Origin: Taxawa tesnikishii (nom. ined.)
Taxonomy: Eukaryota > Ascomycota > Dothideomycetes > Dothideales
Direction of reading: 5' to 3'
Assembly (NCBI GenBank): GCA_030247885.1
Contig: JAPDRO010000018.1
Location: 434,001-498,000, forward strand
DNA: 64,000 nucleotides
In this document: piece by piece, positions 27,805-64,000 of the stretch
Numbering within the stretch: position 1 is the first letter of the stretch
Layout of the letters: each line of letters opens with the position of its first letter
Position numbers and translations under genes: made by a program
The notes under the pieces: model-generated
Told to the model about the DNA's origin: nothing
Database searches by the model: none
What the model saw: the letters and a program-made list of their open reading frames with translations, nothing else

Positions 27805-27808
27805 ATAG

Positions 27809-35879: not shown

Positions 35880-38200
35880 AGAATTCTAGTATAGGGTACA
35901 ATTTAGCTAAGGAAGTATTACTAAATAAGATAGATCTCTAGTATATTAATAAGAAAGACTAGAGAATCTTTTACTAGTACTAGGACTTTAACCTTACTAA
36001 TACTCGCGTAAGAGACGGTACGTTCTTCCTAGGCTAAAATTCGAGAAACTTCCTTTTATTATATTAGTTATATATAGTCGTATAGATCCTAAGGCTACTA
36101 TTATAAGATCGCGACTATACTATACTAGGCTACTAGATAGGCCTAAGTAAGACGAGTATTACTTACGCGCTAGCTCTTAATTAGGCTAGAATTATTAGTA
36201 ATTACGCTCGAGGAGTAATATAACCTAAGGATTATAACTACTATCTTAACGCTTACGCCCTTATAAATTAGGAAGAGTTTAATATTAACGTCGGGCCTAT
36301 ATTAGCGGTTATACTACTTAGCCTTACTAATATATAAGTTATAAAATCTAAGAAGTTTCTTATCCTTAAGCTAAACGAGGAAGGATAGCCTTTAAAGATT
36401 ATATTATACTTATCTTATATATTACTAATAAAGTATAATATAAATAATAAGTATAAAGGGTACTATAAGCTCGATTTTAATGTCCTTTCGATTAATAGAC
36501 TATTAGACGAGAAGCTAATAGTTACTTATAAAAAGGTACTAAAGTTACTTAAGGTACGCGATCTACTTAGGAATATAAAGAACGTTAATACTATTAACTA
36601 GTAGTTATCCTAGTTAGTAGTAACTATACCTAAAAAGATTAATACGAAGACGAACTCTATCTTTAATCTTAACGCGTCCTAGTTACTCGTCCTTTTCGAC
36701 GAATTTTATTTAAATAAAAATTAGACTTATAACGTATATAAGATACTAGTTTAATAGGTAGTATATGCGCGCTATATTTTTATAAGTAGAACCCTATACC
36801 CTCTAATGCGAATAATACTTATACTCGCTTTAACTATAGAGTATTACTACTACTCTTATAAGAAAAATAGTAGGAGTTTTACGTAGATTAGAGCGACTAG
36901 CTAAAAACCTATAAATCTTATAGACTTACCCTTTAATAAAGGACTATTAAAAGGAGGAAAAAAGCTATTAAAGTAAAAGTAGAAATAGCTACGAACTTGT
37001 AGGTTTCTAGTACTAGCGAAATAAATAGCGATTATTAATAAAGCTTAGTAAAAGGATAATAAGTTAAGCGAATCGGTAGCTAATTTAACTTAAGCTAACT
37101 AGGATAATAGTAATAACCCTTAACTAATAGATTTTATTACTAATCTTTCGGAAGAAGTAAGGAAGGCTTTATAAGTATTCGCTAAGATCGTACTATTAAT
37201 AATAATATAGTTTCCGTCTCGTCTTATATAAAATCTACTTTAAAGTAAATATTTTAGTAAACTAGCGATCGAATTTTTACTATATTATATATATAACGTT
37301 AGGATTATTATTAAAGATAAGTATTAATAGTCCCTCGAAGGCAAGTAAAAGTAATCGATTAAGTCTATATAAGAGGATATATAAAGAGTATAAACTAAGA
37401 CGTTTATAGTTTAGAAATTCTTTATAATTATACGCCTATTTTATATCTAGTTAGTATTTTCGTATTTATAGAGCTTAACTAATAACGACGAAACCCTAAA
37501 GGAAGAGCTCGCTAATTATAATATAGTAATAGCGAAAGGGATTATAACTAACTTTAAAGGCTTTTACTTATAGAGTATTATAACGGATATTAATAAGCTC
37601 GCATTAATATAGGTACTAAAGTAGTTAATTACGAAAGTACGTACTTAGAGAAATACTTAAGGTTATTATCGTAAGATCGTCCTCGCTACCTTTAATCCGT
37701 TTAATACTATAGTAATTTAAATAGTATATATATATAAACTTTATATAATAGTAGGAAGATCTAACTCGAGTATAGTATTTACTATAGTTAATAAAGTAAT
37801 TAAACTTCTCTATTATTACGGACGAGGAAGATATTACCTTTATATCCTTATTATATACTACTAATAATAGGAGTCGAGAGATTAGTAAGTTCTTAAACTT
37901 AACTAAAAAGGAAGAGTATATAAATAAGCTATTTATCTTAAACGCGATAGCTTTAGTAATTAAGACTAAATAGTCGCTTATTTTAGCGGACGTAGTTATT
38001 ATTATCGATTCGAAATAAGATATTAAGAAAGTCCTCTAGGTTTAGGTAAGAGTTAGCTATATAAGTAAAATATAGTAAGCTAGCGTTACTAAGTACTATT
38101 ACCTAGTATATATAGTATTATAGTATAACTTCTAAACGTAAGTAGTTAAGTAATAAGACTTAGTATTAACTATACGTAAAGAAGTAGCGCGTATAGTAAG
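35880..38200 (+). pseudogene. SNF2-family helicase/ATPase, copy 1, RIP-inactivated
   Basis: SNF2 ATPases move along double-stranded DNA and remodel chromatin. Motif I (P-loop) reads GYQIGLSKTSITYALALN with GLSKT at 36140-36154; SNF2 proteins have GLGKT, and Gly to Ser is the change RIP makes. Motif II (DExH) reads VLFDEFYLNKN, FDEFY at 36696-36710, followed by motif III FISRTLYP (36778-36801; family form SGTP/SGTL). Further down, VLATFNPFNTIV (about 37.68 kb) and KLLYYYGRGRYYL (about 37.8 kb) fit the start of the C-terminal helicase lobe. Many TAG/TAA stops replace Gln/Trp codons. It stands directly upstream of a Plavaka-type transposase on the same strand. Confidence 0.75.
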
Positions 38201-38849
38201 TAAAATACTAATAGACGATTAGGGCGTAATTTAGCTAGTATTAGAGTAGTTAAGATAAATAGTATTTATCGAAGTATTATACTCGTCTTATAGTACTTAC
38301 TATATTTTATAACTATTTAGTAGCTTTATTTTATAGTAGAAATATAATAACTCGAATAAATACCTTACTTCTTTTATTCTATCGAGTCTATTAGTAATAG
38401 TTATACGTTTGTTACTATACTTTTATAGTAAGTAAGCTCGTACGAAATCGAAAGTAACTTACTAAGTTAATAAGTAACTCGTAACGTAATAGTAAGTAGG
38501 ATCTTAAATCGCGTATATTTACTTACTATTATCTTAGCTACTACCGAGTTAGCTAGTATTATTAAGCGAGTTCGATAACGACTTACGTAAGACTTACTTA
38601 GTTACGAATTTAATTTATATAATCTTAGTCTCTACTTTAAATATACTAAATACTCGCTATTTACTATACTTCTTTCGTTTATACTTTATTACGTCTACTC
38701 CTTATACTAACTATTATAGTAAGAGGTATTGCCTATAGAATATACGACTACGTATATAAATAGAAATATAACTTCCTATAGTATATTTAGCGCTATAGGA
38801 AACGCCGCTAATACGAGATATAATATAGTACTAGTAACGAATATATATT

Positions 38850-41800
38850 AGCGAACTATATACTACTCTTCTTTTCCTCGAGTTAAGAATATAATATAAT
38901 ATACCTTAATAATATTATCTAAGACGAGTATAGCGAAGATAGGGATAATAATAAGATATAAGACGACGTCGATATAGTAGTTATAGTAATAGAGTACTTA
39001 GTTATAGTAATAAATAACTACGACTTTAATAAACTATTAGATATCTTCTAAAATATATAATATATACTAATAGTAATAGAAGTAATCGACGAGGCGTAAA
39101 ATAAAACGTTACTTAATAATAGGCTAAGCGATAGAGGGGAAAGTACTAATATATATAGTTTCGTAATATATAGTAGTAAAGGTAAGTTATTAACGTTTAA
39201 TTTACGAATAAAAGGATATATATAAATATTCGAGGAAGCTACTAAGATCTTAGCTAGTAAAGGGCTAAATTAGTATAGTATTAGAGTCGTTTATATAAGA
39301 GCTTTATAAGCTAATCGTTCTAGTTATAAGTAAAACGAATATATAGATATAAAGAACCTCGCTAGTTTTAGTAGTAATATCGATATTAGCTTTACGAACT
39401 AGTTATATTAAGAAAATATTTCTAAAAATGCTATTACTTACTTACTACGTAACTCTAAACTAAAGCCTATTATTAGCCTACTTAGCTAGCGCTTAGTAAT
39501 AAAGCTAAAAGATAAAATAATAGGAGTAGAAAAGTAAAAGGACGTAGCGAAGTAATATACTACGCTATTTACTTTACTTACTCTAGATACTACCTAGGGT
39601 AAGATAATATATTATCTTTATTATTACTAAGTCGAGGATACGATTTAATTCTTTCTTAAGTACTAAGGATTCGTTAATAACCTTTTATTCTCGCCGTATC
39701 GTATATAAATAAGCGATAAAGAAGCGAAAAGAGTATATAATAAAATAGTATTAGTAAACTAGTAGTAAGATACTTAAGAGTAAATTAACTATAATAGTGC
39801 GACTATTATCCTTCTAATTATTTCGAGCGATAAGACTTAAGTAACTAATTATTAAGGCAATTAATTAGTATATTTAATATACCTTATAATTAGGAACCTA
39901 AAAGCTAACGTATAAAATTCGAACTAGAGACTTAGTTTAATGCTAATTATCCTTATTTCGAATATAAATACCCCGGATTCGGACACTTAGAGCCGAGTAT
40001 TTTATAAATGTTTTAAGGTATTATTCGACCTAATTAAGTAGATTTTACTAGACGGAGGAAAAGAAATACTATATAGCGACGAATAGATACGAAGGTACTT
40101 CCTTATACTTACTATAATAATATTAAACTATAAAGAATAGATACGAGTAACTAGTATAAAAAGCGGTCGATATTATACTATATATATTATAAACTCTAAT
40201 AATAAAGAAGATTTAGAAGCTTAGGCTCCTTAAAAAACTTACGAAACTACCTTATAATAGATTTACTACTAGCGCTCGAACTCTAATAACTAAGATCGAG
40301 ATAACTAAATATATAATATAAACTACTTTACTTTTAGTTACTTATAAGTAAATATCTACGGGATAATAATAGTTAATAATTTATACTAATTACTTAAGGG
40401 CGTCCTTAACTACGTATAGTAATAGTTACTAAGATTACTAGAAGACTAACTTCCTAAGATATATAGTAAAATACTTAAAGTAATAATCGATAAAGCTAAA
40501 TATTATAAAGTACGCTTTAGAAGGAAGGCCCTACTAAAGGATTTTATAAGTAATATAGTCGATAGATAATTCGCTATAGTCTAACTATACTATAATTTAC
40601 GAATCTTCTAGTAACTATTAGTAAGGAAATAAATAACGAGGAAAGAGCTTAAAAGTATATTACGCTAGCTCTTACTTATATATATACTACTACTAAAAGA
40701 AGTCGATTTTATCGAAGCAATTTAGTTTATACGCGTAGTTATTAACTTTATATTACTAGTACTATATTATAGCTACGACGACGATACTCTTCGATATATA
40801 ATACTAGTACTATTTCGTATAAACTAATATAAGGAGATTTTCCGTAAGTATTAACTTAATAGTAAAAAGGAAGGAAATAATATAAAGGGTTATTTTAACT
40901 TCCTTAAATAGTATAGGATTATATATTATATTAAGATAATTAAGTAGCTTAGCGTAGTACTTAACTTAGATACTAGCTATAGCGAATATAACTACGTTAC
41001 GTTCGTAAAGAAAGAGTATAAGCGTACTAATAGGAAATATAATTAGGAAGACTAACTAGCTACGTATAATAGCTAGTAGTTAAGTATAACTACTTACTTT
41101 AATATCGGACTAGATATACGTAGCCTTACGCTAACGAAGAAGATAAAAGAAGCGGCCTAGCTAGTAAGGCTAATAGAAGCTATAAACGTATAATAGTTCT
41201 TTAGCTAGCTACTAATAGTATACCTTAAATTACGAAGCGTATAAATAAGATAGCAATAAGTACGAGAGTTATAATTACTCCTCGGACTTACTATAAGTAT
41301 AATATTTAGATAAGTAATAGTAATATTTATACGTAAATCTAGACTAAGAGAAGGAAATATAACTATAACTTATATTACCTAGGACTTAGATAGGCTTAAA
41401 GAAAATAACTCGTAGGTACTACTATACTAGGTTTAGTTTTACGCCTTATTAAAAGTTAAGAAGGCTAGTAGTACGGATCCGAATAATCTAAATAGTACTA
41501 AGCTAAATATAATTAAATACGCCTTAAACTAGTAAGGAATCTAAGGAAACGAGAAATATAACTAGCTATAAGTATAAGAATACGTAATAATAGCGCCGTT
41601 CGACTTACTAAACTACTCGTTAATAGTAAATAATATATTTAACGGTCGCCGACTAGTATATTTATAGTTTATTATAATAGTAGAAGATTAGTACTATAAT
41701 TAGACTAGGAATATTATTAAAGCGTAGTATATAGGCGTACTAGTTAATCTCTACGTATTAAAAGACTTAAGTAACTACGTCGACCTTATATATAAAATAA

Positions 41801-42100
41801 CGGAAATTAAACTATTACTATTAGTTCCTTCTCGATATATAGGGTAACTAAGTATACGAAGGATTTACCTACTAACGAGCGTATATTATAGTATTTACGT
41901 AGTTTCTAAACTAGAAATACGAGGTAATAGTAAGGGTAAGATATATATTAATAATACTACTAACTAAGAGACGTATAATTTCCTATATAACGTAGATTAA
42001 AAAGAAGAAGCTACTCGAGTAGTAGTAGACTTACGTAAGATACGTATTAGAGCTACGTAAGCCTACGTAAAAGTAAAGAGTATATACGTAAGTAACTAAA
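38850..42100 (+). pseudogene. Plavaka-type (KDZ superfamily) DDE transposase, copy 1, RIP-inactivated
   Basis: An acidic Asp/Glu-rich N-terminal stretch (about 38.93-39.1 kb) leads to the Plavaka core: LLIISSDKT (Asp codon 39829-39831) followed by VTNY and LVYLIYLIIRNLKANVQNS, then SRVFYKCFKVLFDLIKQIL, a Gly-Gly-Lys-Glu turn, SDEQIRRYFLILTIIIL and NYKEQIRVTSIKSGRYYT. Downstream VNNLYQLLKGVLNYVQQQLL fits the family's (D)xLHQLxKGVFxxH block, with Asp and His lost to Asn and Tyr. The order and spacing DKT - YLTIGN - CHxxL - DG/DE - YxADYPEQ are those of KDZ (Kyakuja-Dileera-Zisupton/Plavaka) transposases. Read-through of RIP-made stops is required, so it is dead. The end is approximate. Confidence 0.78.
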
Positions 42101-42556
42101 TATAGTAGCGCTATATTAACTATCGAATCGATAACTAAATTAATAATTAACTTAAAAATATAAATAACGCCTCGGTTTAAGTATAGCGGCGGCGCTAAGA
42201 CTATAAGACTAATATACGCCTAAAATAAGTATATTAAGTAAAGAGCTTATAATAACTAACTTAATAACTTATTTAATAAGTAAATCGGATCGTACGTAGA
42301 TTTATACGACTAGAACGATATATAGTTAAGTATAAAGTAATGTCGACGGTACTATATATATATAACGATAAAATAAAGTCGAGCTAAGAATAGTAAGGTA
42401 ACTTATTAGTTAAGTAGTCTTCCGACTTACTTACTAAATAATAGTTCGCGGAATACGTATCCGGACTATTTAGCGCTATACTAATAGCGTCCTTATTATA
42501 TATATTATATTATAAGGGAAACGAGGTCGAAGAATAATATAAACTTAACTATATAT

Positions 42557-42860
42557 TACGAAATCCTAATAGGTAAATTAGCGCGTTATAGTACTAATCT
42601 ACTCTCTAGTACCTAATCTACTAATCCTTATATCTTAGATTTACGTATCGAATCTACGATATATACTTCGATTTATAGCATCTATAGTTCCTAGTATAAC
42701 TATTAATATCGCCTATAATAATCCTAATAGGATACCTAATATAATCCTAAGGTGCAAGTCCTCTAGTCCTATTAGGATCCCTAGTAGGATTACGAGGTAT
42801 AGACCTAGCAAGTATACTATTACTATAGTTACTACTAGATCTTCCGTACTATACGTACAA
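42557..42860 (+). repeat. Left end of the KDZ-type copy 2 with subterminal TCCTAATAGGA-type repeats (unit A)
   Basis: ATCCTAATAGG, its complement CCTATTAGGAT and the relatives ATCCTAATAGGATACCT, CCTATTAGGATCC and CCTAGTAGGATTAC recur at about 42,562, 42,721, 42,766 and 42,783, and again near the far end of the unit at 52,230-52,253. Clustered short palindromic repeats inside the first few hundred bases, plus a CAC start, are typical of CACTA/KDZ-type element ends where transposase binds (established for the class; assignment here is inference). Confidence 0.5.
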
Positions 42861-44984
42861 ATTAGTATAAGTATAAGAGATAACGTAGTCGTATTATACG
42901 CTATTACGGAAATACTCTATTTACTTAGGTTCCTTACTAGGCTTATCTAGCTAGGCCCTTACTTATATATTTATTATATTAAAAGTCTTCTTAATTACGC
43001 TCTATAACGCGCTATTAAGTAGTTTATCCTCTAAAACCCTTTTATTCTAACTAACTATAAGTACTAACATCTCCTCGTTCTCTTCGCTATATATATTATA
43101 GTACTATATATATAGGCTACTTACGTTCCTAATTACGCGAGTAACCTTAGGCTTAATATTCTTTTAGAGTCTACTCGAAGACGTAACTTAGTAAAAGAAT
43201 ACCTTTTCGCTAATCCTATTTATCTTTACCTTAATAGCCTTTAGTATAAATATAGTAAGGGATAATAACTTACTACTTATAAGTATAGATAGTATATATA
43301 AACTAATACGCTAGCGCTTAGGGCTCCTATTACTAGCGTTTATAGTACTACTAACTTAAGCGGTAACTATAAGGGGCAATAACTAAGAGGATATAATAGT
43401 CGTAGTAGGTAATAACGATTATCGAACGTTTCTATTAATACCTTCGTTACTACTACGGAGCTCTAAACTAGATGTATCTATAATACGTTAAATTATATTA
43501 AAAAGGAATAAGGGCATAGTTTACCTTCTTTACTAAAGTTTAGTCTAGTAAGGTTATCGCTAAAGGTATAGCGCTATTAAGGAGCGACGTATTACTTAAT
43601 CTTATTATCGACTACGCTAAGCTATTTGCGCGCCTAATATGTTATAATAGTAAGGATACGCTCGCGGCGAAGAGGCCTATTCTCGCGTTACTATATATCC
43701 TAGTATCTGTCGTATATGCGCTATATAGTCTTACTACTTAGTGTTTTCTACTTTAGCTCGTACGTTATATTAGTCTCTAGTATACTAGTTATCTATAAGT
43801 TAATAATATACTTTATAGTTACTACTAAATAAAATAGTATATATAGTATTATATCCTAGAAGAATTTACTAGTATCCTCCCGGCCTATAAGGCTACGACG
43901 TCTATAGTAGACCTTACCTATAATCTCGATAAATATCTTACTTAGGAAACGTTTCGCTTATTTAGTTATTTAGTACTTAGCGTAATAATGTTAATATAAG
44001 TATTATAACGGTACCTCGTCGCTATCTTAGTAAAGGAAAGCTCTTACCTTTCCTTCCTTATATACTTATTACTTAAGGTAATTAGTATCGCGAGACGTAT
44101 ATCTACTAGTAGCATTTCGATTAATATAAGCGTTTATTTCTCTATAGGTAATAGTAGAGTAGTTATTACGAGTCGTTCTTATAGATTTACGTATCTAGAT
44201 TTACGTTAGTACTTCGAGGATAGCTAGGAATATTATATACTCTAAAAACTATAGCCCTATATAGGGCGCGTAGTACTTCCGTCCCTAGGTTAGCTTCTTA
44301 CTCGATAGACTAGACGTCTCTCTATATATCCCGAATAAGTTTATTCGTCTAGTATTCGTTTTAGGATACTAGGTAAAATCTAGGGTATATTATCTCTTAG
44401 AAAGAAGGCATAACCCCGAAGTAGAAATAAATGTAATATAAAGCTTAACTACTTTATAGACCCGAAATGTAACTAGAGGTAATAGTAGCTTACCTCGACT
44501 AATAATCTATTTAAGGTCTTCTCTTCCTTAATAGAAGAGTACTAAAGGTTATATCGTTTATATTTCCTAGCGCTCTTCTAGCTCTTAGTAGCCTTACTTA
44601 ATACTACGAGATACTTAAACGAGACTTAAGTAGTTAGGATTATAAATAAACGTAGCTTCTATCTAAACCGAGTCGTAGTTAATACTATCCGATCCTTAGG
44701 ATAGCTTAGTAATACTATAATATATAAGAGAAATCTAATAATATATATTAAAGACGAACGACGTATCGAACAAATAGTTAATAAAGTTTTACTAAGGTAT
44801 TAGGATATAATATAACAAAACGAACGCGTTAATATAGTTAGGTTAAATGAAAAGAAGGAAAAAGTTCTATACGTATAAACGTATCTTAACGCTTCCTTTA
44901 GCGATTCGTAGTAGTCTAAGCTATTTACGTAACTCTTAGTAGCTATATTAATAGCGGCCTTAGTAGCTTCTTTAAGACTTACCT

Positions 44985-45335
44985 TATTAGTAATCCTAGT
45001 AGTAATCCTAGTAGTAATCCTAGTAGTACTCCTAGTAGACTCTCTAGCGACTTTCTAAGAATCGCCCTATTAGTAATCCTAGTAGTAATCCTAGTAGTAC
45101 TCCTAGTAGACTTTCTAGCGACTTTCTAAGAATTGCCCTATTAGTACTCTTAGTAGACTTTCTAGTAGCTTTCTAAGAATCGCCCTATTAGTAATCTTAG
45201 TAGTAATCCTAGTAGTACTCCTAGTAGACTCTCTAGTAGCTTTCTAAGAATCGCCCTATTAGTACTTCTAGTAGTACTCCTAGTAGACTCTCTAGTAGCT
45301 TTCTAAGAGTCGCCCTATTAGTAATCCTAGTAGTT
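44985..45335 (+). repeat. Minisatellite in X, unit A
   Basis: About five copies of a 50-80 bp composite unit built from CCTAGTAGTAATCCTAGTAG and GACTCTCTAGTAGCTTTCTAAG, with inner 12-bp CCTAGTAGTAAT repeats. In one frame it would encode a Ser/Pro-rich NPSSNPSSTPSRLSS-type repeat. Confidence 0.88.
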
Positions 45336-46897
45336 AGTATTAATAAAGTAATATTACCTTCTTAACTATTATCTAGTTATAATACTTATTTATATAGTAA
45401 AACTCGTATAATTACCTTAATTAAGTTATTATAGCTATCGCCGTTAAAGTAAGTATTATAGTAAGTATAAGCTAATATACCTTAAAATAAGTAGTTTAGT
45501 AGACTATCTTATATAAAGAGACTATAAGTACCGTACGCTCTATAGTTACATTCGTAAGTACTACTACCTTAAAGGTAATAAATAATTATAATAAAGGGTA
45601 GTTTAGGACCTACTCTCTATTAGTATTATATATCGAGGGTATACTTAAAACTTACTATACGAAACTTTAAGTTCTTTCCTTATAGACATCGAATCGAGAT
45701 AAGTCTCTCCTAATTACCTTAATCGTTAATTATAGTAGGCCTCTTATCTTCTTAATCTAATTCGATATAATTCGAGGCGCTATTTAACTCTTACTTTATA
45801 GTTAGCAATTCGACTAAGCGTAATAGGAGTAGATCCTTTAGGGCGTAATAATACCTTATTACTTTTACTCTAGCTCTTATAATCTCGTACGTAAAGCTAA
45901 TAGCCTTAAACGAACTACCCTTAAGCGTAACTTATATAGGCTCTATAACTAGGATATAGTAGTATCTTTTCTTACTATCCTTACTCTTTATCTCTACGCT
46001 TTTAGTTTTAGCTTTATCTCCGTCCTTATTACTAGTACTACTAGTAGCTAGGCTAGTTATAGCGCGACTTATACTAGAGGTTAATTTAGCGTTACTATAA
46101 GTAACTTTATACTCGTAGCCGCGTCGCTTAAGGTTTACGTTAATTTAGTATATTAGCTTCTAGAATAACTCTTTTCTATTGTCTATCTATATAAATCGTA
46201 TAGTATCGTAGAATCGGTATACTATGTCGTATTACTTTAGGACTATAGTAAAGATCTTAACCTCGATATAGTTCTATATTTTAATTGTCGCAAAACTCTT
46301 TCTAATAAGACGCAACGCTACGAAGATTCTCTCGATAAAAGTATAGAAGTTATAGTATCTCTAGTTACTTAGCTATAAGTCCTATTTAATTATCTATGTA
46401 ACTAATCGACTACTATTTTTGCTAATATTCTTTAACTTATAAGTTAAAGCTATAGTCGCATTAGGGGAGTATCTTTATAAGAGTATACGTAGGTATTAAG
46501 TAAAGGCTTAGTTAGTCTTCTTTAACTTATAAGGCCTTCGGGATTAACTATATACGCCGTCTAGTTACTACTTACATATTCCTCTCGTTTAAATAGTAAA
46601 TATTCCTCGATGTCTTATTCGCATTCTTTGTACCTTTACGATCTAATTATCTTATTAGCTTTGTAGAAGATAGTCCTTATAGGCTACGCTAGCGTATATA
46701 GGAACTACTATTAGTACTTTACTTTAACCTTATCGATAGTATAAACTTAACCCTTTATTTACCTACGTAAAAAGGCCTCTCTTATCGTGTTAATTAGTAG
46801 TCTAATACTAGCAATTTCTATAGAGTAGTACTCTTCTCCTTTTCCTTTATTATATTATATATATAGTTAAGTAGTAAAGTAAGGCATAATTATAGTA

Positions 46898-47100
46898 GGC
46901 CTTATTAATCTTTCCTTTATATCTTATATACTTATTCGTTTATATCCCCTCCTTACTTTTATACTCTAATAAACCTCCTAGTAGGATTACTAGTAGGGCC
47001 TTATTAATCTTTCCTTTATATCTTATATACTCGTTCGTTTATATTCCCTCTTTACCTTTATACTCTAATAGATATCCTAGTAAGATTACTAGTAGGGCTT
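46898..47100 (+). repeat. 99-bp tandem repeat, unit A
   Basis: Two copies starting GGCCTTATTAATCTTTCC at 46898 and 46997, plus a partial third ending AGTAGGGCTTACTTACTCCC. The counterpart in unit B is at about 56,793-57,000. Confidence 0.85.
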
Positions 47101-47459
47101 ACTTACTCCCTCGTTTGTACTTTATAAACCTATTCCTTTACTTCCGTTTTATACTTCCTTACTAATAAAGTCTTTTATCTAGTTACTACCTTTTTCCCTC
47201 CGGCTATATTTATATACTTATTCTTTACTACTACTTATCTTATTCGCTTTACTCCTTTATTAGCTTAGTACTTAATAGTTACTACGTCTTACGCTACGTT
47301 TTCTTAAGCCTTCTAGATCTATATTAGTATAGAGACTTCGTTTATATTATACGTTACGCGTTAGTTAATAACGCTATCTTCGGCTACTATTATAATATTA
47401 CTTTCTCGTCCTTCCGCGCTCGTATAAGTCGTCTCTATATATATGCTAATTACTTCGTA

Positions 47460-47575
47460 TTACTACCTTCTTATTACGCGCGTTACTATCTTCTTATTAC
47501 GCGCGTTACTACCTTCTATAATACGCGCGTTACTATCTTCTTATTACGCGCGTTACTACTTCTATCATACGCGTA
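47460..47575 (+). repeat. 22-bp array (TTCTTATTACGCGCGTTACTA), unit A
   Basis: Five or six copies rich in the palindrome ACGCGCGT. It is repeated in unit B at 57,360-57,470. It is unusual for keeping dense CpG in AT-rich surroundings. Confidence 0.85.
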
Positions 47576-47899
47576 ATATAGACTTATACTTTACTATTAG
47601 TTCTTCTTTATTTCCTTATCTAGCGCTAAATTTAGTCGCTATCTTATATAGTCGTTCTTATAGACTCTCTTTTACTAGTCCGAGGTATTTCTTCCTTCCT
47701 ACTTACTTATATCGTATTTTAACTTACTACGTAGAATAATTATTTATCTTAGTCGTTATAGTAAGCTATTAGAATTACGCTCTTTCTTTTACTAGTCCGA
47801 GGTATTTCTTCCTTTTACTCGTATATATACTTGTATTAGATTTTAACTTATCGCGCAAAACGATTATTTTACTTCCGCGCTATTACTATAAGTATACCT

Positions 47900-52200: not shown

Positions 52201-52463
52201 TAGAAATTAGCAAAGTACTTAAAACACTAAATCCTATTAGGATACTTAATAGGGTCGAGTAGATAGTCTAGTATACGTAACGTATAAGGCGAAAACGCGA
52301 GAACGTAAACACTTAGTAGGGCCGTATTATATTCGCGTCTTACGAAGCGTAACTACCTTAATTCTTTACTATTATACTATTATTTAAATAATAGTACTAT
52401 AATATTAATATAAGTATACTCCTTGTATTAAAGACTAGGATTTAAGAGTACCTCTAGGTTCGT

Positions 52464-52770
52464 CACGAAATCCTAATAGGTAAATTAGCGCGTTATAGTA
52501 CTAATCCACTCTCTAGTACTTAATCTACTAATCCTTATATCTTGGATTTACGCATCGAATCTACGATGTATGCTTCGATCTATGGCATCTATAGTTCCTA
52601 GCATAACTATTAATATCGCCTATGATAATCCTAATAAGATACCTAACATAATCCTAAGGTACGAGTCCTCTAGTCCTATTAGGATCCCTAGTAGGGTTAC
52701 GAGGCATAGACCTAGCAAGTATACTATCACTATAGTTACTACTAGATCTTCCGTGCTATACGCACAAATT
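52464..52770 (+). repeat. Left end with subterminal repeats, unit B
   Basis: The same motif set as in unit A, at about 52,469, 52,628, 52,674 and 52,690, preserved with CpA at the CACG terminus. A partner at the unit's far end lies at 62,124-62,147 (ATCCTATTAGGATACCTAAT). Confidence 0.5.
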
Positions 52771-55700
52771 AGTATAAGCATAAGAGATGACGTAGTCGTA
52801 TTATACGCTATTACGGAAATGCTCTATCTACTTAGGTTCCTTGCTAGGCTTATCTAACTAGGCCCTTACTTACATGTTTATTACATTAAAAGTCTTCTTA
52901 ATCGCGCTCTATGACGCGCTATTAAGTAGTTTGTCCTCTAAAACCCTTCTATCTTAACTAACTATAGGCACTAATATCTCCTCGTTCTCTCCGCTATACA
53001 TGTTATAGTACTATATATATAGGCCGCTTGCGTTCCTAATTGCGCGAGTAACCTTAGGCTTAACATTCTTTTAGAGCCTACTTGAAGACGTAACTTAGTA
53101 GAAGAACACCTTTTCGCTAATCCTATCTATCTTTACCTTAATGGCCTTTAGTGTAGATATAGTAAGGGATAACAACTTACTACTTATAAGTGTAGATAGT
53201 ATATATAAACTAACACGCTAGCGCTTAGGGTTCTTATTACTAGTATTTGTAGTACCGCTAACTTAAGCGGTAGCTATAAGGGGCGATAACCAAGAGGATA
53301 TAATAGCCGTAGTAGGCGATAACGATTGTCGAACGTTTCTATTAATGCCTTCGTTACTACCGCGGAGCTCTAAACTAGATGTGTCTATAATACGTTAAAT
53401 TACATTAAAAAGGAATAAGGGTATAGTTTACCTTCTTCGCTAAAGTCTAGTCTAGTAAGGTTATCGCTAAAGGTATAGCGCTATTAAGGAGCGACGTGTT
53501 ACTTAATCTTATTATCGACTACGCTAAGCTATTTACGCGCCTAATATGTTATAATGGCAAGGATACGCTCGCGGCGAAGAGGCCCATTCTCGCGTTACTA
53601 TATATCCTAGTATCTGTCGTATATGCGCTATATGGTCTTACTACTTAGTATTTTCTACTTTGGCTCGTACGTTACATTAGTCTCTAGTATGCTAGTTATC
53701 TATAAGTTAACAATATGCTCCATAGTTACTACTAAATAGAATAGTATATATAGCATTATATCCTAGAAGAATTTGCTAGTATCCTCCCGGCCTATAAGGC
53801 CACGACGTCTATAGTAGACCTTGCCTATAATCTCGATAAACATCTTACTTAGGAAACGTTTCGCCTATTTAGTCATTTAGTACTCGGCGTAATAATGTTA
53901 GTATAAGTATTATAATAGTACCTCGTTACTATCTCGGCAGAGGAAAGCTCCTACCTTTCCTTCCTTATATACCTATTACTTAAGGTAATTAGTATCGCGA
54001 GACGTATATCTACCGGTAGCATTTCGATTAATATAAGCGTTTATCTCTCTACGGGTAATAGTAGAGTAGTTGTTACGAGCCGTTCTTATAGATTCGCGTA
54101 TCTAGATCTACGTTAGTACTTCGAGGACGGCTAGGAATATTATATACTCTAAAAACTACGGCCCCATGTAGGGCGCGCGGTACTTCCGTCCCTAGGTTAG
54201 CTTCTTACTCGATAGACTAGACGTCTCTCTATATATCTCGAATAAGTTTGTCCGTCTAGTATTCGTTTTAAGATACTAGGCAAAATCTAGGGTATATTAT
54301 TTCTTAGAAAGAAGGTATAACTCCTAAAGTGGAAACAAATATAATACGAAGCTTAACCGCTTCGTAGACCCGAAATATAGCTAGAGGTAATAGTAGCTTA
54401 CCTCGACTAATGATCCATCTAAGGTCTTCTCTTCCTTAATAGAAGAGTACTAAAGGTTATATCGTTTATATTCCCTAGCGCTCCTCTAGCTCTTAGTAGC
54501 CTCGCTTAATACTACGGGATACTCGAACGGGACTTAAGTAGTTAGGATTATAAATAAACGTAACTTCTATCTAAACCGAGTCGTAGTTAATACCGTCCGA
54601 TCCTTAGGATAACTTAGTAGTACTATAATATATAAGAGAGATCTAATAATATATACCGAAGACGGACGACGTATCGAACGAATAGTTAGTAAAGTTTTGC
54701 TAAGGTATTAGGATGTAATATAATAAAACGAACGCGTTAATATAGTTAGGTTAAATAAAAAGAAGGAGAAAGTTCTATACGTATAGACGCGTCTTAACGC
54801 TTCCTTTAGCGATCCGTAGTAGTTCGAGCCGTTTACGTAACTCTTAGTAGCTATACTAATAGCGGCCTTAGTAGCTTCTCTAAGACTTGCCCTATTAGTA
54901 ATCCTAGTAGTAATCCTAGTAGTACTCCTAGTAGACTCTCTAGTAGCTTTCTAAGAATCGCCCTATTAGTACTCCTAGTAGACTCTCTAGTAGCTTTCTA
55001 AGAATTACCCTATTAGTAATCCTAGTAGTAATCCTAGTAGTACTCCTAGTAGACTTTCTAGCGGCTTTCTAAGAATCGCCCTATTAGTGCTCCTAGTAGT
55101 ACTCCTAGTAGACTCTCTAGCGGCTTTCTAAGAGTCGCCCTATTAGTAATCCTAGTAGTAATCCTAGTAGTACTCCTAGTAGACTCTCTAGCGGCTTTCT
55201 AAGAGTCGCCTTATTAGTAATCCTAGTAGTCGGTATTAATAAAGCGGCATTGCCTTCTCGACTATTATCTAGTTATAGTACTTATCTACATAGTAGAACT
55301 CGTATAACCGCCTTAGTTAAGTTACTATAGCTATTACTATTAAAGTAGGTATTACGGTAAGTATAGGCTAATATACCTTAAAATAAGTAGTTTAGTAGAC
55401 TATCTCATGTAAAGAGACTATAAGTACCGTACGCTCTATAGTTGCATTCGCAGGTACCGCTACCTTAAAGGTAGTAAATAATTACAATAGAGGGCGGTTT
55501 AAGACCTACTCTCTATTAGCATTATATATCGAGGGCATACTTAAAACTTACTATACGAAACTTTAAGCTCTTTCCTTATAGATATCGAATCGAGATAAGT
55601 CTCTCTTAATTACCTTAATCGTTAATTATAGCGGGCCTCTTATCTTCTTAATTCAATTCGATATAATCCGAGGCGCTATTTAACTCTTACTTTATAGTTA

Positions 55701-57250
55701 GCAATTCGACTAAGCGTAATAGGAGTAAATCCTCTAGGGCGTAATAATACCCTATTACTTCTACTTTGGCTCTTATAATCTCGTACGTAAAGCTAATAGC
55801 CTTAAACGAACTACCCTTAAGCGTAACCTATATAGGCTCTATAGCCGGGATGCGGTAGTATCTTCTCTTACTATCCTTACTCTTTGTCTCTACGCTTCTA
55901 GTTTTAGCTCTATCTCCGTCCTTATTACTAGCGCTACTAGTAGCTAGGCTAGTTATAGCGCGACTTGTACTAGAGGTTAATCTAGCGTTACTATAAGTAA
56001 CTCTACGCTCGCGGCCGCGTCGCTTAAGGTTTACGTTAATTTAGTATATTAGCTTCTAGAACGACTCTTTTCCGTTGTCTATTTGTATAAATCGTATAGT
56101 ATCGCGGAATCGGTATACTATATCGCATTGCTTTAGGACTATAGTAAAGATCTTAACCTCGACGTAGTTCTACATTTCGATTATTACGAAACTCTTTCTA
56201 GTAAGATATAATACTACGAAGATTCTCTCGACAAAAGTATAGAAGTTGCGGTATCTCTAGTCGCTTAGCTATAGGTCCTATTTAATTATCTACGTAACTA
56301 ATCGACTACTATTTTTACTAGTATTCTTTAACTTATAGGTTAAAGCTATAGTCGCATTAGGGGAGCATCTTTGCAAGAGTATACGTAGGTATTAGGTAGA
56401 GGCTTAGTTAGTCTTCTTTAACTTACAAGGCCTTCGAGATTAGCCGTATACGCCGTCTAGCTACTATCTATATATTCCTCTCGTTTAGATAGTAGATATT
56501 CCTCGATGTCTTATCCGCATTCTTTATACCTTTACGATCTAATTATCTTATTAGCTTTATAGAAGATAGTCCTTATAGGCTACGCTAGCGTATATAGGAA
56601 CCGCTATTAGTACTTTACTCTAACCTTATCGATAGTATAGACTTGACTCTTTATTTGCCTACGTAAAAGGCCTCTCTTATCGTGTTAATTAGTAGTCTAA
56701 TGCTAGCAATTTCTATAGAGTAGTACTCTTCTCCTTTTCCTTTATCGCATTATATATATAGTTAGGTAGTAGAGTAAGGTATAATTATAGTAGGCCTTAT
56801 TAATCTTTCCTTTATATCTTATATACTTATTCGTTTATATCCCTTCCCTACTTTTATACCTTAATAGACCTCCTAGTAGGATTACTAGTAGGGCCTTATT
56901 AATCTTTCCTCTACATCTTATATACTCGTTCGTTTATATCCCCTCTCTACCTCTATACTCTAATAGACATCCTAGTAGGATTACTAGTAGGGCTTACTTA
57001 CTCCCTCGTTTGTACTTTATAAACTTATTCCTTTACTTCCGTTCTATACTTCCTTACTAATAAAGTCTTCTATCTAGTTACTACCTTTCCTCCCTCCGGC
57101 TATATCTATATACTTATCCTTTGCTACTACTTGTCTTATTCGCTCTACTCCTTTATTAGCTTAGTACTTAATAGTCACCGCGTCTTACGCTACGTTTTCT
57201 TAAGCCTTTCGGATCTATATTAGTATAGAGACTCCGTTTGTATTATACGT
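52566..57250 (+). pseudogene. Unrecognised long coding trace X, unit B
   Basis: From the ATG-containing stretch at 52570 the plus strand reads as a former protein: MLRSMASIVPSITINIAYD, IPNIILRYESSSPIRIPSR, then SILRDDVVVLYAITEML-like sequence; later in another register LLRSDVLLNLIIDYAKLF (53481 on), ILPAYKATTSIVDLAYNLDK and SAEESSYLSFLIYLLLKVI, and still later KAIVALGEHLCKS. Register changes suggest introns or indels. The length potential exceeds 1,300 residues. I recognise no catalytic motif. Fungal telomere-linked helicase N-termini were considered, but the match is too vague to claim. It might be one gene with the downstream helicase. It is inactive as it stands because stops occur throughout. 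Confidence 0.5.
54885..55225 (+). repeat. Minisatellite in X, unit B
   Basis: The same composite repeat as in unit A but with a different order of long and short sub-units. It accounts for the small length difference between the two units. Confidence 0.88.
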
Positions 57251-57359
57251 TACGCGTTAGTTAATAACGCTATCTTCGGCTACTATCGTAACATTACTTT
57301 CTCGTCCTTCCGCGCTCGTATAGGTCGTCTCTATATATATGCTAATTACTTCGTATTAC

Positions 57360-57470
57360 TACCTTCTCGTTACGCGCGTTACCGTCTTCTTATTACGCGC
57401 GTTACCGCCTTCTATAATACGCGCGTTATTATCTTCTTATTACGCGCGTTACTACTTCTATAATACGCGC
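57360..57470 (+). repeat. 22-bp array (TTACGCGCGTTAC), unit B
   Basis: Counterpart of 47,460-47,575, with some copies reading GCGTTACCGTC or GCGTTACCGCC, the less RIP-altered state. Confidence 0.85.
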
Positions 57471-57799
57471 GACGTAGACTTACACCTTACTACTAGTTCT
57501 TCTTTATTTCCTTATCCGGCGCCAAATTTAGTCGCTATCTTATATAGTCGTTCTTATAGACTCTCTTTTACTAGTCCGAGGTATTTCTTCCTTCCTACTT
57601 ACCTATATCGTATTCTAACTTACCGCGTAGAACGATTGTTTATCTTAGTCGTTATAGTAGGCTATTAGAATTACGCTCTTTCTTTCACTAGTCCGAGGTA
57701 TTTCTTCCTTCTACTCGTGTATATACTCGTATTAGATTCTAACTTACCGCGTAGAACGATTATTTTACTTCCGCGCTATTACTATAAGTATACCCGCTA

Positions 57800-60700
57800 A
57801 TCCCGCCGCGTCCTTCGCGCTACTACTTCCTAACTTAAATCCTTTAGCCGATTTCGATAAGTACAATCCCTCTATATAGACGAAGAACTTACTCCGGCAT
57901 TTTCTCGCGACCAAGGGCCCGGGTAAGTCTAAAAGAGGTACTATAAAGGGATTCGTATACGCTACTCTAAGCGTAGACGAAGCTAACTAGTAAATTCTTA
58001 AGGATATAGTTATAAGCTATCTAAGGAATTCTAAATACCTTCGCGAGGGCCTCCTAAAGATACCCGCAGCTAAGCGCGAACGCTTTAGTATTTAGAATGA
58101 CCTTCTCAACGAAGCAAAAGGCTAGGCTATCTAGGAATTACTTTAAAAGAGGTCTCGAGAGAAGCTACCCTAACCCTAGTACTACCTAGACTTGTTCTAT
58201 AGGAGTGAGAACGACGCGGACCTTATTAAGATAGTTATATAGTATCTTCTTCGGATATACGTATAAGACGTAAAGTACGAGAATAGAAGTAATAGCGAGG
58301 GTAAATATAGCTAGGGTACTAGAAGTAAAAAAGAGTACGTTTAACGTTATAGTCGAGAGTACGTTTATCGTTACGCTTAGAGCGCTTACGGAGCCGAATA
58401 CGTAGCAATATGCATAGTGCCGTATTATCTACTAATATAACCGACGATCTCAATGACATGATTATTAGTAGCTTAACGTTAAAGAAGGATCTTAGCAACA
58501 TACTTCTTATATTCGTCTAGGTTAACCCTATCTACTCTAATATAGACATACTTGTTAGTCTATCTATAGCTATACCTTTACGTCTCGGTACTATTTATAA
58601 TACTAATAAGGGCGTATATAAGCTTAACCTTTTTCGCAAGCTAGCTTAGCGCTATTCTAGGAGCGTTCTACTACTAGTAGTCTAAGAGCTTATCGCCTAC
58701 GTTTAGTAACAAGTAACGCGCGAATTTTAGTAGTTTAACTTAACTATCGATCCTAAAGTAGACGTAAACGAAGCTAAATTAGCCGGCTTACTATATAATA
58801 GCATACTCTAGGAGGTATACTAAAATGCCTTAGCCGACATTAAATAGCTCTAGATATTCGTTACACGCGATCTCGACTATGTCCGACTAATCCCTAAGTC
58901 TAAGCTCTATAGATAGAGAGCTATCCCGAACGAGCGTACCTTAGAGAAGACGAACGAGTATACTCTAGAGAATATAAAGGTAGCGAAGCTATCTACGAAG
59001 ATCGAGCGCCGACTAGTACTATCGCTACCTCCTATAAAGCTAACGCGTCGTTCTACTATTAAGTTTGCAACGATAAAGAATAATAGTTTAATATTAGAAA
59101 GTAACGATCTATCCGAGCTAGACGTTCCTCCTAGTCCGGAAAACTCCTATTAGCTAGAAGATAACTACGTTACTATAGAGAGAGCTACTCTTAAAAGAAA
59201 ACAAAAAGAGCTAGACGATAAGGTAGATAATAAGGCTCGTAAGAAGGCCGCATACTTAACTATAAAGTTTTTTAGTCGATTAGAAGTAATACTTATAAAC
59301 CTAGCTCCTTAGTAAAGTAAAAACTATCTATTACTCTCGATAGTAATTAGATAGTATGTAAGTAGCTATCGAGCGGTAATGTCGAGGGCTTAGACTCTAT
59401 CGACGGAGATAATAAAAGCGCGGCTACTAATTTCTAGGCTCTAACATTAAGAGATTATAGTTTCGAGTATAGGGAACCCGCTCTTTAGTAGGCTACGTGT
59501 CGCTTCTTTAACGGCGATTCGGATGACCTTAACCTCGCATCTAGTGTTTTCTATAAGGGCTAGAATAAGAAGAACTTCTTGTTATCCTACTAGTTCTACT
59601 CTACGAGCTAGGCTTTAAAGGAAACACTTTCTAGTAGCCCCGCAGTTTATAATACTTACAATATAGGCCTTAGTAAGACTTATGTTACTATTACGTAGCT
59701 CTAGGTATCTATGTAGATAGTAGAGGAGTTGGGACGTCCTCTAGACGCTAAAGTATACTCGGGCGACTACTTTAACTCTAAGATACTACTCGCCTCGTAC
59801 GACTAGCTTAAAGACATTTAGCCGCGACTCGAAGTAGGCCTAAGCCTAATAGTTATCGCGAATAAGTTATTCTTAACGTAAATCGATAATATTCGCAAAT
59901 TCGTCGGGGATAGGATTAAGATTGTACTTGCTAGTCTAGAGATAATAAAGAGGGACCGAGCCTTCTTTACTAAGGAGAAAACGTATTACTTTATAGATAC
60001 TATTATTTAACTTAGAAGTATATACTATCCGAGCTAGAAGTAGCTAGAACTAAGGTATACGTAGTAGGGACTTAATGTTCCTAAACCCTTTCTAGTTAGA
60101 GATTTGCTTAAACGCAACCTTGTTAAAGATAGTAAGGAGGATAATAAAGGAGATATAGATAGTATATAGAACGGCCCCTACTATAGTTTAACGACTATTC
60201 GAAATAGGTCGTACTTACGACCCTAGAGAAGCTCGCAAGTAACATCTATCTTACTAACTGTTACTTTAAGGACAAGAGATATAATAAGTAGTTTAGTAAA
60301 GTTACCTACGAAAATATAAGTAGTAAGAAGCGAAAGATAATAACACGCGTTTTAGTATAAGAAAACCCTATTAATACCTCGTTCGCGCGCGTAATCGTAG
60401 ATAAGTTCTACGAACATATTGGCGCATTTAAGAGCGTTTAGTTAAATCTAGGCTTACTTTCGGGTACTCCGTAGTTCATGTTCGTTAGTGGAACGCTATT
60501 TAATAAGGTTACTTTAATTATAGGCCTATGCCTCGCCTCTAAAGCCTAGTACTTCGACCTTAGAGATCCTAGAAAGCGCATTATTAGAAACTAGACCTAG
60601 AGCTTTCCGCATTAGGTAGCGAAAGTCGCTAGCGATAAAACGAATCCTAGTAGTAGGCGGCATAACTTAAACAAAATCGAGTTAAACGCTTAGGGGTAAA

Positions 60701-62100
60701 GCTAACCTACTTATATTAGATAGCGCCTATCGAGAGCTAGCTTCCTATAGCTTATAACTACTACCGATATAGTCGCAAAAGAGTAGGGCAAGGTTAGCGC
60801 CGCCTTACTTAGAAAGATAAGAGACGCTAGAGGCAAGGGCGACGACGAGGAAGACTAGATAAATGTTAGCGAACTTAGTAAAGAGAGTCTCGAACAAGTC
60901 TAAATCCTTAGTAAAGTACTATAGGCTAGGACTATTAAGTATAATATTAACTATCGATAGCTTCTAAATGTTAAGACTTACCTACGCGGAGAGGGCATAA
61001 GAGCTATACTAATGCTACTATATCTAACGTTCGACTATATAGTCGGGATTCTAGAGAGAGAGATAGATTATCTAATACTTACCTAGTAGAAGGTCCTTAC
61101 TAATACGCTTAAGAAAGGCATAGGAAAGTCTAGTTTTAGTATATATAACTTTATAACTACTTGTTACTATTTTCGCGTCCTTACGGTCCTACCCTACCTT
61201 AAGAGACTCGAGGAAACCGACAAAGCTATACGCACGGAATTGGCGGAGGGTATAATAGCTAAGATAGCGCCGACGCTTCTAAAGGATCCTTAAAGTACTA
61301 CTCTCTAGCAATACATAGTAGAGATTAACGCTACGCTTATAATGTAGAAGCTCCGCGAGATCCTTAAGAAGGTACGAGCCTAAAACAACTTTACTAGCTA
61401 GTTCCTACGTAAGGTTATAATTAGTTTGTTCTTACCCTTTACTATTACCGTAGTTAAGATATAGATAATATAGTTACTCGAATAAAAGGCTAATAGTAAC
61501 GCTCCCGCCTAGGACTTTCCTAACTTTACTAATTTCTTAAAGGACATTAGGTTCGTCAATTCCTAGACTAGTAATAAGTTCTAGGTAATTAACGACTTTA
61601 AGGGTACTAGTAACGAAGAGTATAAGGACGAGCCGGGAGCCTTATTAGCTATTATAAGCTAGATTAGTAGCGGAATAGATCTAGTCCCTAGCGACTATAT
61701 TATCCTACTAGACTCTAACTAGACTATGTAGAATGTGTCGTAGCTTGTCTATCGAGTAAGACGCGCTAAGATAACGTAGAAGGTAAAGATTACGGAGTAC
61801 TATCGTATTATTTGCAACTCTAAGCGAATCCGGATTTAGGGATAGATAAACGATCGTATTATAAGCGCTAATAAGCTTCGCGCTAAACTAGCTACGTATA
61901 GTATCGAGGAGGAGAAGCTTAGGAAGTATATAGATCGAGTAATTAATATTAGTAGCAATAAGGAAGGCGATAACGATATATAGATAGAAGGTAGTAGTAG
62001 TAGAAGACTAGAGAATTATACCTATATAAATCTAAAAGAAAAAGAATATACGTAAATCATTATTCCCGGAAGTAGACTATTTGCGTAGATAAGATAGAGA
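57800..62100 (+). pseudogene. SNF2-family helicase/ATPase, unit B, RIP-inactivated
   Basis: Plus-strand trace with SNF2 landmarks in order: a pre-motif I segment like other fungal SNF2 proteins (FYSTSQALKETLSSSPAVYN), motif I NIGLSKTYVTI (GLSKT at 59666-59680), ILLASYDQLKDI, motif III FVSGTLFNK (60481-60507), then in the C-terminal lobe GIDLVPSDYIILLDSN (61672-61719) and the motif VI arginine-finger region LVYRVRRAKIT (61744-61776; family form QxxxRxxRxGQ), followed by KVKITEYYRII. The order and the GxDLVxSDYxILLD - RxxR pair identify an SNF2 ATPase and argue against a RecQ or DEAD-box enzyme. RIP stops occur at former Gln/Trp codons. The transposase of the same orientation starts within about 0.3 kb of its end. 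Confidence 0.82.
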
Positions 62101-62354
62101 TTAGCAAAGTACTTAAAATACTAAATCCTATTAGGATACCTAATAGGGTCGAGCGGATAGCCTAGTATACGTAACGTACGAGGCGAAAACGCGAGAACGC
62201 GAACATTTAGTAGGGCCGTATTATATCCGCGTCTTACGAAGCGCAACTACCTCAATTCTTTACTATTATACTATTATTTAAATAATAGTACTATAACACC
62301 GACATAAGTATGCCCCTTGTATTAAAGACTAGGATTTAAGAGCGCCTCTAGGTT

Positions 62355-64000
62355 ATTAAGGTATATTACCGCCTATACTACCGCTTAAAAACTAAAGAAC
62401 GCCTTATAGGCTAGAGAGGGTATATATATAGCTCGTAAAGATAGTAGATATACTAGAACTAATGCATAATAGGCCGCATATCTCCTTCCGTACTAGACGC
62501 CTTATATACTAATATAGCGTCTTAAGACCCCGATAGACTAGGTAGAGGCGACATTGACGCTATAGCGTACGAGGATACTATATACGACCCGACAAGCGAC
62601 GGATTACCTTGCGGAGGTATAGGAGAAGGTAATAGCGAACAAACGGAGGAAGACGAGAAGGTTAAAGAAGAGTCTAACGATAACGAAGAATATAACCTAG
62701 CTAGGGACTTTATAGACTAGACGTAGATATTAGAGGCCCTCGACCTATAGCCTAGTAATAGTAGTAATAATAACGATAATATAACTCCTATCGACGAGTA
62801 AGAGAGGATAGCTAGCAAGGAAGCGGAAGACGCATATAGTACTACGTATAGTATAAGTTCTAACTTAATCCGCCTAGGTAGCGGAAGACTATTATTATTG
62901 GCGTTAAGCGAGGTACGCGATAGTTTTAAAGAAAAGACGGCTCTAAAAGTAAGCTCTCGTAAGACGCGGTACGTATAGTATAAAAATCAAATATTAACGC
63001 ATAGCTAACGGCATCTAGTTATAATATATAGGACACAATTAATCCAACGCTACTTAGAAATTTCTAAGACTAGTTCGACTTTAGCTTTACGCGATAGATA
63101 TACCGAGAAAACATCTCTAAGAACGGCATTAACCGCCTACTTAAGACCCCGGGACTAGAACCCCTACTATAGCGCCTTAGCTAGAAGTCGGCCGACTAGC
63201 TACGAATAAAGATAGAAAACATACCCACGGTAGCGGATATTAAGTAGTAGTATACAAAGGAGATGCGAGTACTAAGTAAGAGTAACCTAACTAGATATAT
63301 AGCGTATAGTTTATAGTATAGGGATCCGATGTAAGTAGTTAAATTCTTCCTAGGCTATATCGGCTTTCGATATAACCTCTACTATAAGTCGTACCGCGCA
63401 TAGATAGACGAGAACCGCAACTACAAGAGGTATACTAACATACTATCTAGTAATTAGTAGTAGGACATATAGAAATAGGTTAGCTTAACTATGCCTAGAG
63501 CTACTATCGTGCCTATTATTATCGCAAGCGACAAGACTAAGTTAACGCTTTAATTAGGAGACCTATAAGCTTACGCTATATATATAATAGTTAGTAACCT
63601 TAATGCAACGACGCGATATTCGAACGAACGGCCTAGGTCGATATTATTAGTATTACTACTAATAGTTAATAAGGGTAATGCGGACTTAAGGAGTAGGATA
63701 TTCTATTAGTGTTTAGAAGAAGTCTTTAAACTAGTCGTAGATGCGTGTAAATAGAGAGGAACTAAAATCTCCTACGCTAATAGCTAGATAAGGCAATGCT
63801 TCCTAATAATCGCCGCAATTATAACCGATTACGAGGAGTAGGTTAAGCTAATAGGCGTACTTAGTAGTCGATACTATATAATGTGCAAGATCTATCTTAA
63901 TCTACGAGAGGATCTCGAACTCTTAGCGCCCTAGTAGACTAAAGCGGATTCTTAAAATCGTATTAAACGTTAGCGACGGGCCGTTCGTATTCGTGTAAGT
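62355..64000 (+). pseudogene. Plavaka-type (KDZ superfamily) DDE transposase, copy 2, runs off the window
   Basis: An acidic N-terminal region (about 62.52-62.83 kb: DPDRLGRGDIDAIAYEDTIY, later EEDEKVKEESNDNEEYNLA) leads to the catalytic core: PIIIASDKTKLT (Asp codon 63530-63532), AYAIYIIVSNLNATTRYSNE, SILLVLLLIVNKGNADL, SRIFY(stop)CLEEVFKLVVDACK, ISYANS(stop)IRQCFLIIAAIITDYEE, VKLIGVLSSRYYIMCKIY, NLREDLELLAP. These are the family's DKTxLT, YLTIGN-like, CHxxLxxLLxPL-like, DGxxRxCFPxLAAxIADYPEQ-like and C-rich hairpin blocks, in order. At least eight stops, mostly TAG at Gln/Trp positions, make it inactive, but CpA/TpG survival is the best of the right half of the window. The 3' end and the right terminus lie beyond 64,000. 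Confidence 0.82.

Follow-up and report, generated by a model that had tools for sequence, protein, structure and literature searches.

Background

Plavaka transposons have been placed in the CMCT superfamily, outside KDZ, with termini of the form CATCA..TGATG in PlavakaB and TGT..ACA in the A type (Kojima 2025, PMC12730594); some PlavakaB families carry TET/JBP genes as cargo, and SNF2 is absent from the main text of that paper. Two mushroom genome papers with Plavaka elements likewise make no mention of SNF2 in their main text (PMC7473861, PMC8290104). Among DNA transposons, Inton and Enton reportedly carry an SNF2 helicase gene alongside that for the transposase (PMC3627910, citing Kapitonov et al.), and AcademH and KolobokH are described as helicase-bearing (PMC10799480). 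In this study, we analysed a stretch of 64,000 nucleotides (hereafter the window) from Taxawa tesnikishii (Dothideales), a desert fungus described from biological soil crusts (PMC11195213), in which traces of SNF2 genes accompany traces of Plavaka transposase genes. The two genes lie within one element bounded by 2-bp target duplications and have moved together many times, in diverged families. No report of SNF2 in Plavaka, KDZ or CACTA-group elements was found among the literature matches listed (titles, abstract starts and passages), a scope that did not extend to Iyer et al. 2014, reportedly the founding paper for KDZ and Plavaka.

The window corresponds to C10:434,001-498,000 (contig JAPDRO010000018.1 of assembly GCA_030247885.1; 29.37 Mb, 34 contigs). 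Other loci are given by similar handles, and all genome comparisons were made within this one genome.

Near-intact elements carrying both genes

Profile searches of the genome with PF00176 and PF18759 revealed SNF2 and Plavaka as neighbours on each of C2, C11 and C30. The three loci are copies of a single element (14,345, 14,344 and 14,414 bp, respectively), 95.9-97.5% identical end to end, with exact ends formed by a 20-bp perfect terminal inverted repeat, CGTCACGAAATCCCGGATCG. Their 2-bp flanks are TA/TA (C2), CT/CT (C11) and AC/GC (C30), the last being explicable by a change of the type caused by repeat-induced point mutation (RIP). The C2 copy (C2:247317-261661) is nearly unmutated and holds both genes inside its terminal repeats. 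An earlier note on this DNA had proposed, from the window, that the two genes belong to one mobile element, and had pointed to profile searches and to intact elements with both genes between one pair of terminal repeats as the way to check it. The C2 copy is such an element and the terminal repeats examined do not separate the two genes; together with the common inverted ends, 2-bp duplications, empty site and genome-wide co-occurrence described below, this bears the proposal out.

The C2 Plavaka gene is a 917-codon frame, open from stop to stop. The N-lobe of the SNF2 gene is an open frame of 581 codons from its ATG and the helicase-C lobe lies on further frames; Pfam accordingly gave SNF2-rel_dom (42.8 bits, cut-off 24.9) and Helicase_C (30.6 bits, cut-off 23.5) on separate frames, and the motifs MGMGKT, DEYH, SGTP and ARVRR could be read by eye. 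No TET/JBP model appeared when six read-through frames from the C2 copy were scanned with Pfam. Private changes relative to C2, counted in ungapped two-state columns, were almost only C-to-T or G-to-A, mostly in CpA/TpG (206/239 for C11 and 221/274 for C30), and 111 further C-to-T/G-to-A sites were common to C11 and C30. As the C2 copy is nearly unmutated and the other copies of its family that were compared are RIP-mutated, movement was recent.

Beyond this genome, the 581-residue C2 SNF2 open reading frame (ORF) had no match in PDB at E up to 0.01. In the protein database, the SNF2 query returned 11 proteins covering 4-13%, with no SNF2 domain listed, that were drawn by a repeat in the query; residues 125-581 had no match among 7,997 scored candidates. 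The only NCBIfam matches, a TolA-like one in the repeat and a weak one to a helicase, scored well below their cut-offs. Viral contigs yielded 33 pattern matches, none of them confirmed, and plasmids no match.

Nested elements in the window

The window sits in a RIP-mutated island of the genome: it is AT-rich with a RIP dinucleotide signature from about 2 kb onward, the composite RIP index is 1.4-2.5 in every 2-kb bin except the first, and no closed reading frame of at least 150 codons occurs past 1.3 kb. It contains parts of three nested elements, A, B and C, from two families (Table 1), B interrupting A and C interrupting B. A further, reverse copy, element D, with ends and TT/TT flanks, lies to the left of the window.

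Element C is complete, and its termini, CGTCACGAAATCC...GGATTTCGTAACG, are alike at 12 of 13 bases, the exception being one transition; they are flanked by TT/TT. Seven long genome matches start exactly at 52,461 and the remaining long ones within 9 bases of it, save two pieces. An empty site with a single TT was found with sister copies on C8 and at C11:682 kb, as well as at element C's own paralogous site. Because the sequence to the left of 52,461 picks up again at 66.5 kb, following a 2-bp duplication, element C must have inserted into B, which resumes at about 66,508 and finishes at about 70,650, outside the window, with TA/TA flanks. A tandem duplication of 42,558-52,460 and 52,465-62,354 was also considered and was ruled out by the homologue starts at or near 52,461. 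Neither end of element A is in place: a repeat element (24,965-27,810) displaces the left one and the insertion of B the right one; terminal repeats of A were sought and none found, and a RIP-tolerant scan of the C10 region with all 20 bases of the C2 repeat found no match, nor did its five shuffled controls yield any.

GLSKT P-loops at 36,140 and 59,666 and DKT motifs at 39,829 and 63,530, separated by 3,689 and 3,864 bases, lie exactly where the earlier note had placed them. Its description of two parallel modules holds as far as the two SNF2-transposase pairs go; it had overlooked a third SNF2 P-loop, at 49,771, and the arrangement is one of three nested elements of two families. Element B's transposase lies past the window end, at 67.2-70.0 kb, because element C inserted between it and B's SNF2 gene. 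With the C2 SNF2 frames as query, tblastn aligned 35,810-37,081 (E 1.5e-23), 49,609-50,112 (4.6e-11) and 59,492-60,007 (2.4e-8), and with the helicase-C part 37,776-38,054 (3.1e-8) and 61,519-61,776 (1.4e-9). In element A, a single frame runs across the linker between the lobes, followed by a frame change to the helicase-C part; in element C, an SGT trace of motif III is visible and 61,519-61,776 is the motif V/VI region. No Pfam SNF2 match was obtained at E up to 1 in plus-strand read-through frames of 35,950-40,900 and 59,050-64,000, and phmmer found no match to PDB chains with three plus frames of 59,050-62,400; it is therefore by alignment to the open C2 frames that SNF2 is identified in the window. 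Read in this way, the traces are genuine but decayed.

Nesting was also seen elsewhere: at C11:594936-615587, an older copy of the C2 family hosts a young element of that family, bounded by a CT target duplication. This case and the A/B/C arrangement amount to repeated nesting within relatives.

Class of the transposase

PF18759 scored 245.2 bits on the C2 copy and 81.9 and 99.6 bits on the window copies (curated cut-off 26.3), and Plavaka relatives were recovered from the protein database, among them ones in Polychaeton citri and Meristemomyces frigidus. Pfam-A scans of the transposase frames, in the window and on C2, reported Plavaka and no KDZ model. Among six resolved insertions, five have identical 2-bp flanks and the sixth differs by a RIP-type change. 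Such duplications do not reach the lengths given for KDZ elements, i.e. 7 bp for Kyakuja (PMC12730594) and 4-8 bp for the Cryptococcus elements (PMC12810828). The termini, CGTCA..TGACG, fit neither Plavaka type, being one letter per end off PlavakaB. By its profile matches, the transposase is assigned to Plavaka, outside KDZ; the KDZ superfamily, to which the earlier note had referred it, is not supported, given the lack of a KDZ match, the 2-bp duplications and the published placement of Plavaka (PMC12730594).

Pairing of SNF2 and Plavaka across the genome

The initial set comprised 34 Plavaka and 36 SNF2 loci; of 62 candidates, 50 were scored, and some loci may therefore have been missed. 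In this first pass, an SNF2 match lay no more than 8 kb upstream of 28/34 Plavaka loci, one of which (C10:501208) had only the SNF2 of element C. C9:33237 was dropped because it belongs to the C9 copy, being its displaced end (residues 813-916, following 2-820), leaving 33 Plavaka loci, which is to be read as at least 33 in the genome. SNF2 lies upstream on the same strand at 31 of these 33 (30 without C8), and at 27 the distance between reference points is 3.3-5.6 kb. Further pairs are C11:678906, element B, C5 and C8, where SNF2 is 14.3 kb away with none in the nearest 4.75 kb. Element B's own SNF2, at C10:483597, is about 3.64 kb from its transposase once element C is subtracted. Random placement over the genome would give about 0.17 loci paired within 8 kb, under a null that ignores the clustering of repeats in islands, and chance pairing is not plausible.

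Nine SNF2 loci initially had no Plavaka partner; C10:483597 proved to be that of element B, and the other eight cover part of the gene only. The identities of SNF2 and Plavaka to C2 are correlated (rho 0.88 at 19 hand-picked loci), a figure confounded by shared RIP that we do not count as evidence. A 125-residue SNF2 piece comprising the P-loop region, of the type found in elements B and C, was noted at C29:410226-410600 (-) in a stretch of normal GC, the rest of the gene being absent in the 3.5 kb examined.

Element families and the split SNF2 frame

Three families were distinguished: F1 (C2 and its relatives), F2 (window element A, C18 and C22) and F3 (elements B, C and D, and others). The F1 copies compared (C1, C24, C11b, C6 and C12 for SNF2; C1, C11b and C29 for Plavaka) share with C2, when read through as protein, 52-75% of residues along most stretches and 93% along one. 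Their differences from C2 are transitions, with at most one transversion in any comparison (304-1,981 sites), and F1 is for this reason regarded as one recent family struck by RIP. F2 and F3, judged by the window copies, have diverged from F1 with many transversions; gene order is common to all three families, and of the terminal repeat only the first 13 bases are common to F1 and F3. SNF2 traces align over the P-loop, DExH and motif V/VI regions in families with transposases that, compared by pieces, are only 25-47% identical to C2. Projected spacing between reference points is 3.47-3.49 kb in F1 and F2, and in F3 mostly about 3.6-3.76 kb, with one copy at 3.3 kb and three at 5.5-5.6 kb; by DNA searches, the gap from the end of SNF2 to the start of the transposase is about 1.24 kb in the majority of F3 copies.

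In C2, C1, C24, C11 and C30, the SNF2 frame is broken between the lobes (at about 256.33 kb on C2). The break is a small length difference relative to the sister copies C11b, C6 and C12, which, like window element A, read the linker in one frame. C11 and C30 have no length change relative to C2 at the linker, C24 has one further change, and no ordinary intron that would explain the break was evident on inspection of the sequence. Either this sublineage produces its SNF2 as two polypeptides or through a frameshift, or other copies provide the protein, or the element can do without it.

Accessory genes and other sequences

At least two further genes, A and B, belong to the element, on the opposite strand near its left end. 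On C2 they occupy C2:248243-249628 (-) and C2:250994-251956 (-), respectively; gene A marginally exceeds the cut-off for DUF6532 (25.5 against 24 bits) and gene B has no Pfam match. Element A has the same order as C2, i.e. both accessory genes on the minus strand, SNF2 and Plavaka on the plus strand. Both genes are kept in F1 and F2, and gene B is also traced in F3. Compared with element A, gene B has a third-position bias resembling that of the transposase. Just upstream of SNF2, C2:253689-254570 (+) is a 294-codon open frame for which tblastn at E up to 1e-3 found no counterpart in the C10 region.

The 2.85-kb repeat element at 24,965-27,810, within the left part of element A, is bounded by direct repeats of 185 bp (96%) and contains a minisatellite; related copies occur elsewhere in the genome. 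Direct-repeat pairs also bound RIP-mutated sequence at 3,723-14,887 (225 bp, 96%) and 15,225-21,766 (149 bp, 87%) and may be the ends of long terminal repeat elements.

Table 1. Elements and gene traces located in the 64,000-nucleotide window
Feature	Position	Strand	Evidence
Element A (F2), interior	27,811-42,553	+	same-family copies C18 and C22, with matches ending at 42,553 and starting at 27,805 (end of the repeat element)
Element B (F3), left part	42,554-52,460	+	91% identity to element C over 9.9 kb; ends; TA/TA target duplication
Element C (F3), complete, 14,047 bp	52,461-66,507 (right 2.5 kb past the window)	+	ends; TT/TT; empty site
Left terminal inverted repeat of element C, 13 bp	52,461-52,473	+	
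SNF2 trace, element A	35,810-38,054	+	tblastn E 1.5e-23 and two more pieces; P-loop 36,140
SNF2 trace, element B	49,609-51,906	+	tblastn and DNA match; P-loop 49,771
SNF2 trace, element C	59,492-61,776	+	tblastn with C2 SNF2 ORFs; P-loop GLSKT 59,666
Plavaka transposase trace, element A	39,022-42,054	+	PF18759 E 6.7e-23; tblastn E 0.0
Plavaka transposase trace, element C	63,041-64,000, continuing to 65,887	+	PF18759 E 2.6e-28; tblastn E 1.5e-131
Accessory gene A, element A	28,223-29,241	-	tblastn E 3.5e-13 and 1.8e-6
Accessory gene B, element A	31,917-32,642	-	tblastn E 2.4e-25
Accessory gene B trace, element B	46,121-46,357	-	tblastn E 9e-5
Accessory gene B trace, element C	56,017-56,268	-	tblastn E 4e-6

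Discussion

These loci are probably Plavaka cut-and-paste transposons of about 14 kb, with CGTCACGAAATCC... ends, in which an SNF2 gene about 3.5 kb upstream on the same strand aids transposition or expression. In such an element, the Plavaka transposase would bind and cut the ends, and the SNF2 protein would use ATP to move along DNA, possibly clearing nucleosomes at the donor or the target; donor and target would be repeat-rich, heterochromatin-like islands, where nucleosome clearing might help transposition or expression. The window copies were afterwards destroyed by RIP. We infer that SNF2 may open heterochromatin or act in transposition. All six resolved insertions lie in AT-rich, repeat-like flanks, which weakly favours chromatin opening, as transposons also survive in such islands.

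Transversions relative to element A fall mainly on third codon positions in Plavaka (78/68/206 at positions 1/2/3, p 1e-22). Several observations weigh against a working role for SNF2. Codon-position constraint is weaker in the N part of SNF2 (112/97/150 against element A, p 0.002), and the bias is not significant at 0.05 in 5/9 SNF2 pieces, nor in two gene-A comparisons (three pieces); the alignments were moreover picked by protein similarity, so that codon-position bias leans towards constraint. The sublineage with the split frame (C2, C11, C30, C1 and C24) occupies five sites, so those moves did not require an intact SNF2 in cis. SNF2 was not detected at 2/33 Plavaka loci, C29:738,796, which the left end of an F3 element abuts, and C30:1,428,325. 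Finally, the protein database yielded no SNF2 relative, in a search that also missed this fungus's own copy and was thus insensitive; since that protein was not returned, such searches evidently miss split or mis-modelled genes.

Two of these points, the split frame in the mobile C2 sublineage and the lower constraint on SNF2 than on the transposase relative to element A, would suit a captured passenger that moves with the element and does nothing for it. A neutral passenger, however, would hardly have been kept at the same place in F1, F2 and F3 with recognisable motifs, and we consider this unlikely. In cells, SNF2 proteins serve chromatin opening, anti-silencing and repair, and the gene could instead counter silencing, keeping the element expressed, or aid post-insertion gap repair rather than open targets. 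The reading of TET/JBP genes in other Plavaka elements as anti-silencing cargo (PMC12730594) points the same way; the present data do not separate this alternative from chromatin opening, and we hold it possible, at less than even chances.

Two further explanations concern the pairing itself. In Parastagonospora nodorum, a RIP-mutated repeat with Rad5/SNF2-like helicase genes, X3X3R8, has been interpreted as a duplicated and subsequently mutated cluster of host genes (PMC3017866); for the present loci such an origin is scarcely credible, the exact inverted ends, 2-bp duplications, empty site and internal transposase refuting it for C2, C11 and element C. That the pairing reflects one recent duplication instead of a conserved module might be suggested by elements B and C, which are adjacent and 91% identical, and by the F1 copies compared, which differ almost only by transitions. 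B and C are nevertheless separate insertions, one nested in the other, and F1, F2 and F3 are deeply diverged yet keep the gene order, their many transversions arguing against an origin from F1 by post-insertion mutation; we regard a single duplication as highly improbable.

A bolder form of the favoured interpretation, i.e. an SNF2 gene that works for its transposon, would be a Dothideomycete Plavaka lineage in which SNF2 is a core part that opens heterochromatin and enables insertion into silenced, RIP-mutated repeat islands, including the lineage's own dead copies, the motor of the youngest sublineage being two cooperating lobes; we find this doubtful as a whole. If SNF2 does work for the element, the question of whether a DNA transposon brings its own chromatin opener could be put to the test, since one genome contains a nearly unmutated copy whose ends are exact.

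Comparison with known systems

The elements resemble PlavakaB as described in PMC12730594 in their PF18759 transposase, 2-bp target duplications, accessory genes and termini differing by one letter per end. They depart from it in carrying SNF2 and at least two other genes, in giving no TET/JBP model in the six C2 frames, in those terminal letters and in their Dothideomycete host. Inton and Enton are likewise described as combining an SNF2 helicase with a transposase (PMC3627910). AcademH and KolobokH also bring their own helicase-type ATPase, but with transposases of other superfamilies (PMC10799480). Lastly, the TET/JBP-bearing Plavaka and KDZ elements (PMC12730594) share with the present ones a chromatin- or DNA-modifying cargo, which is a dioxygenase in their case and a putative SNF2 motor here.

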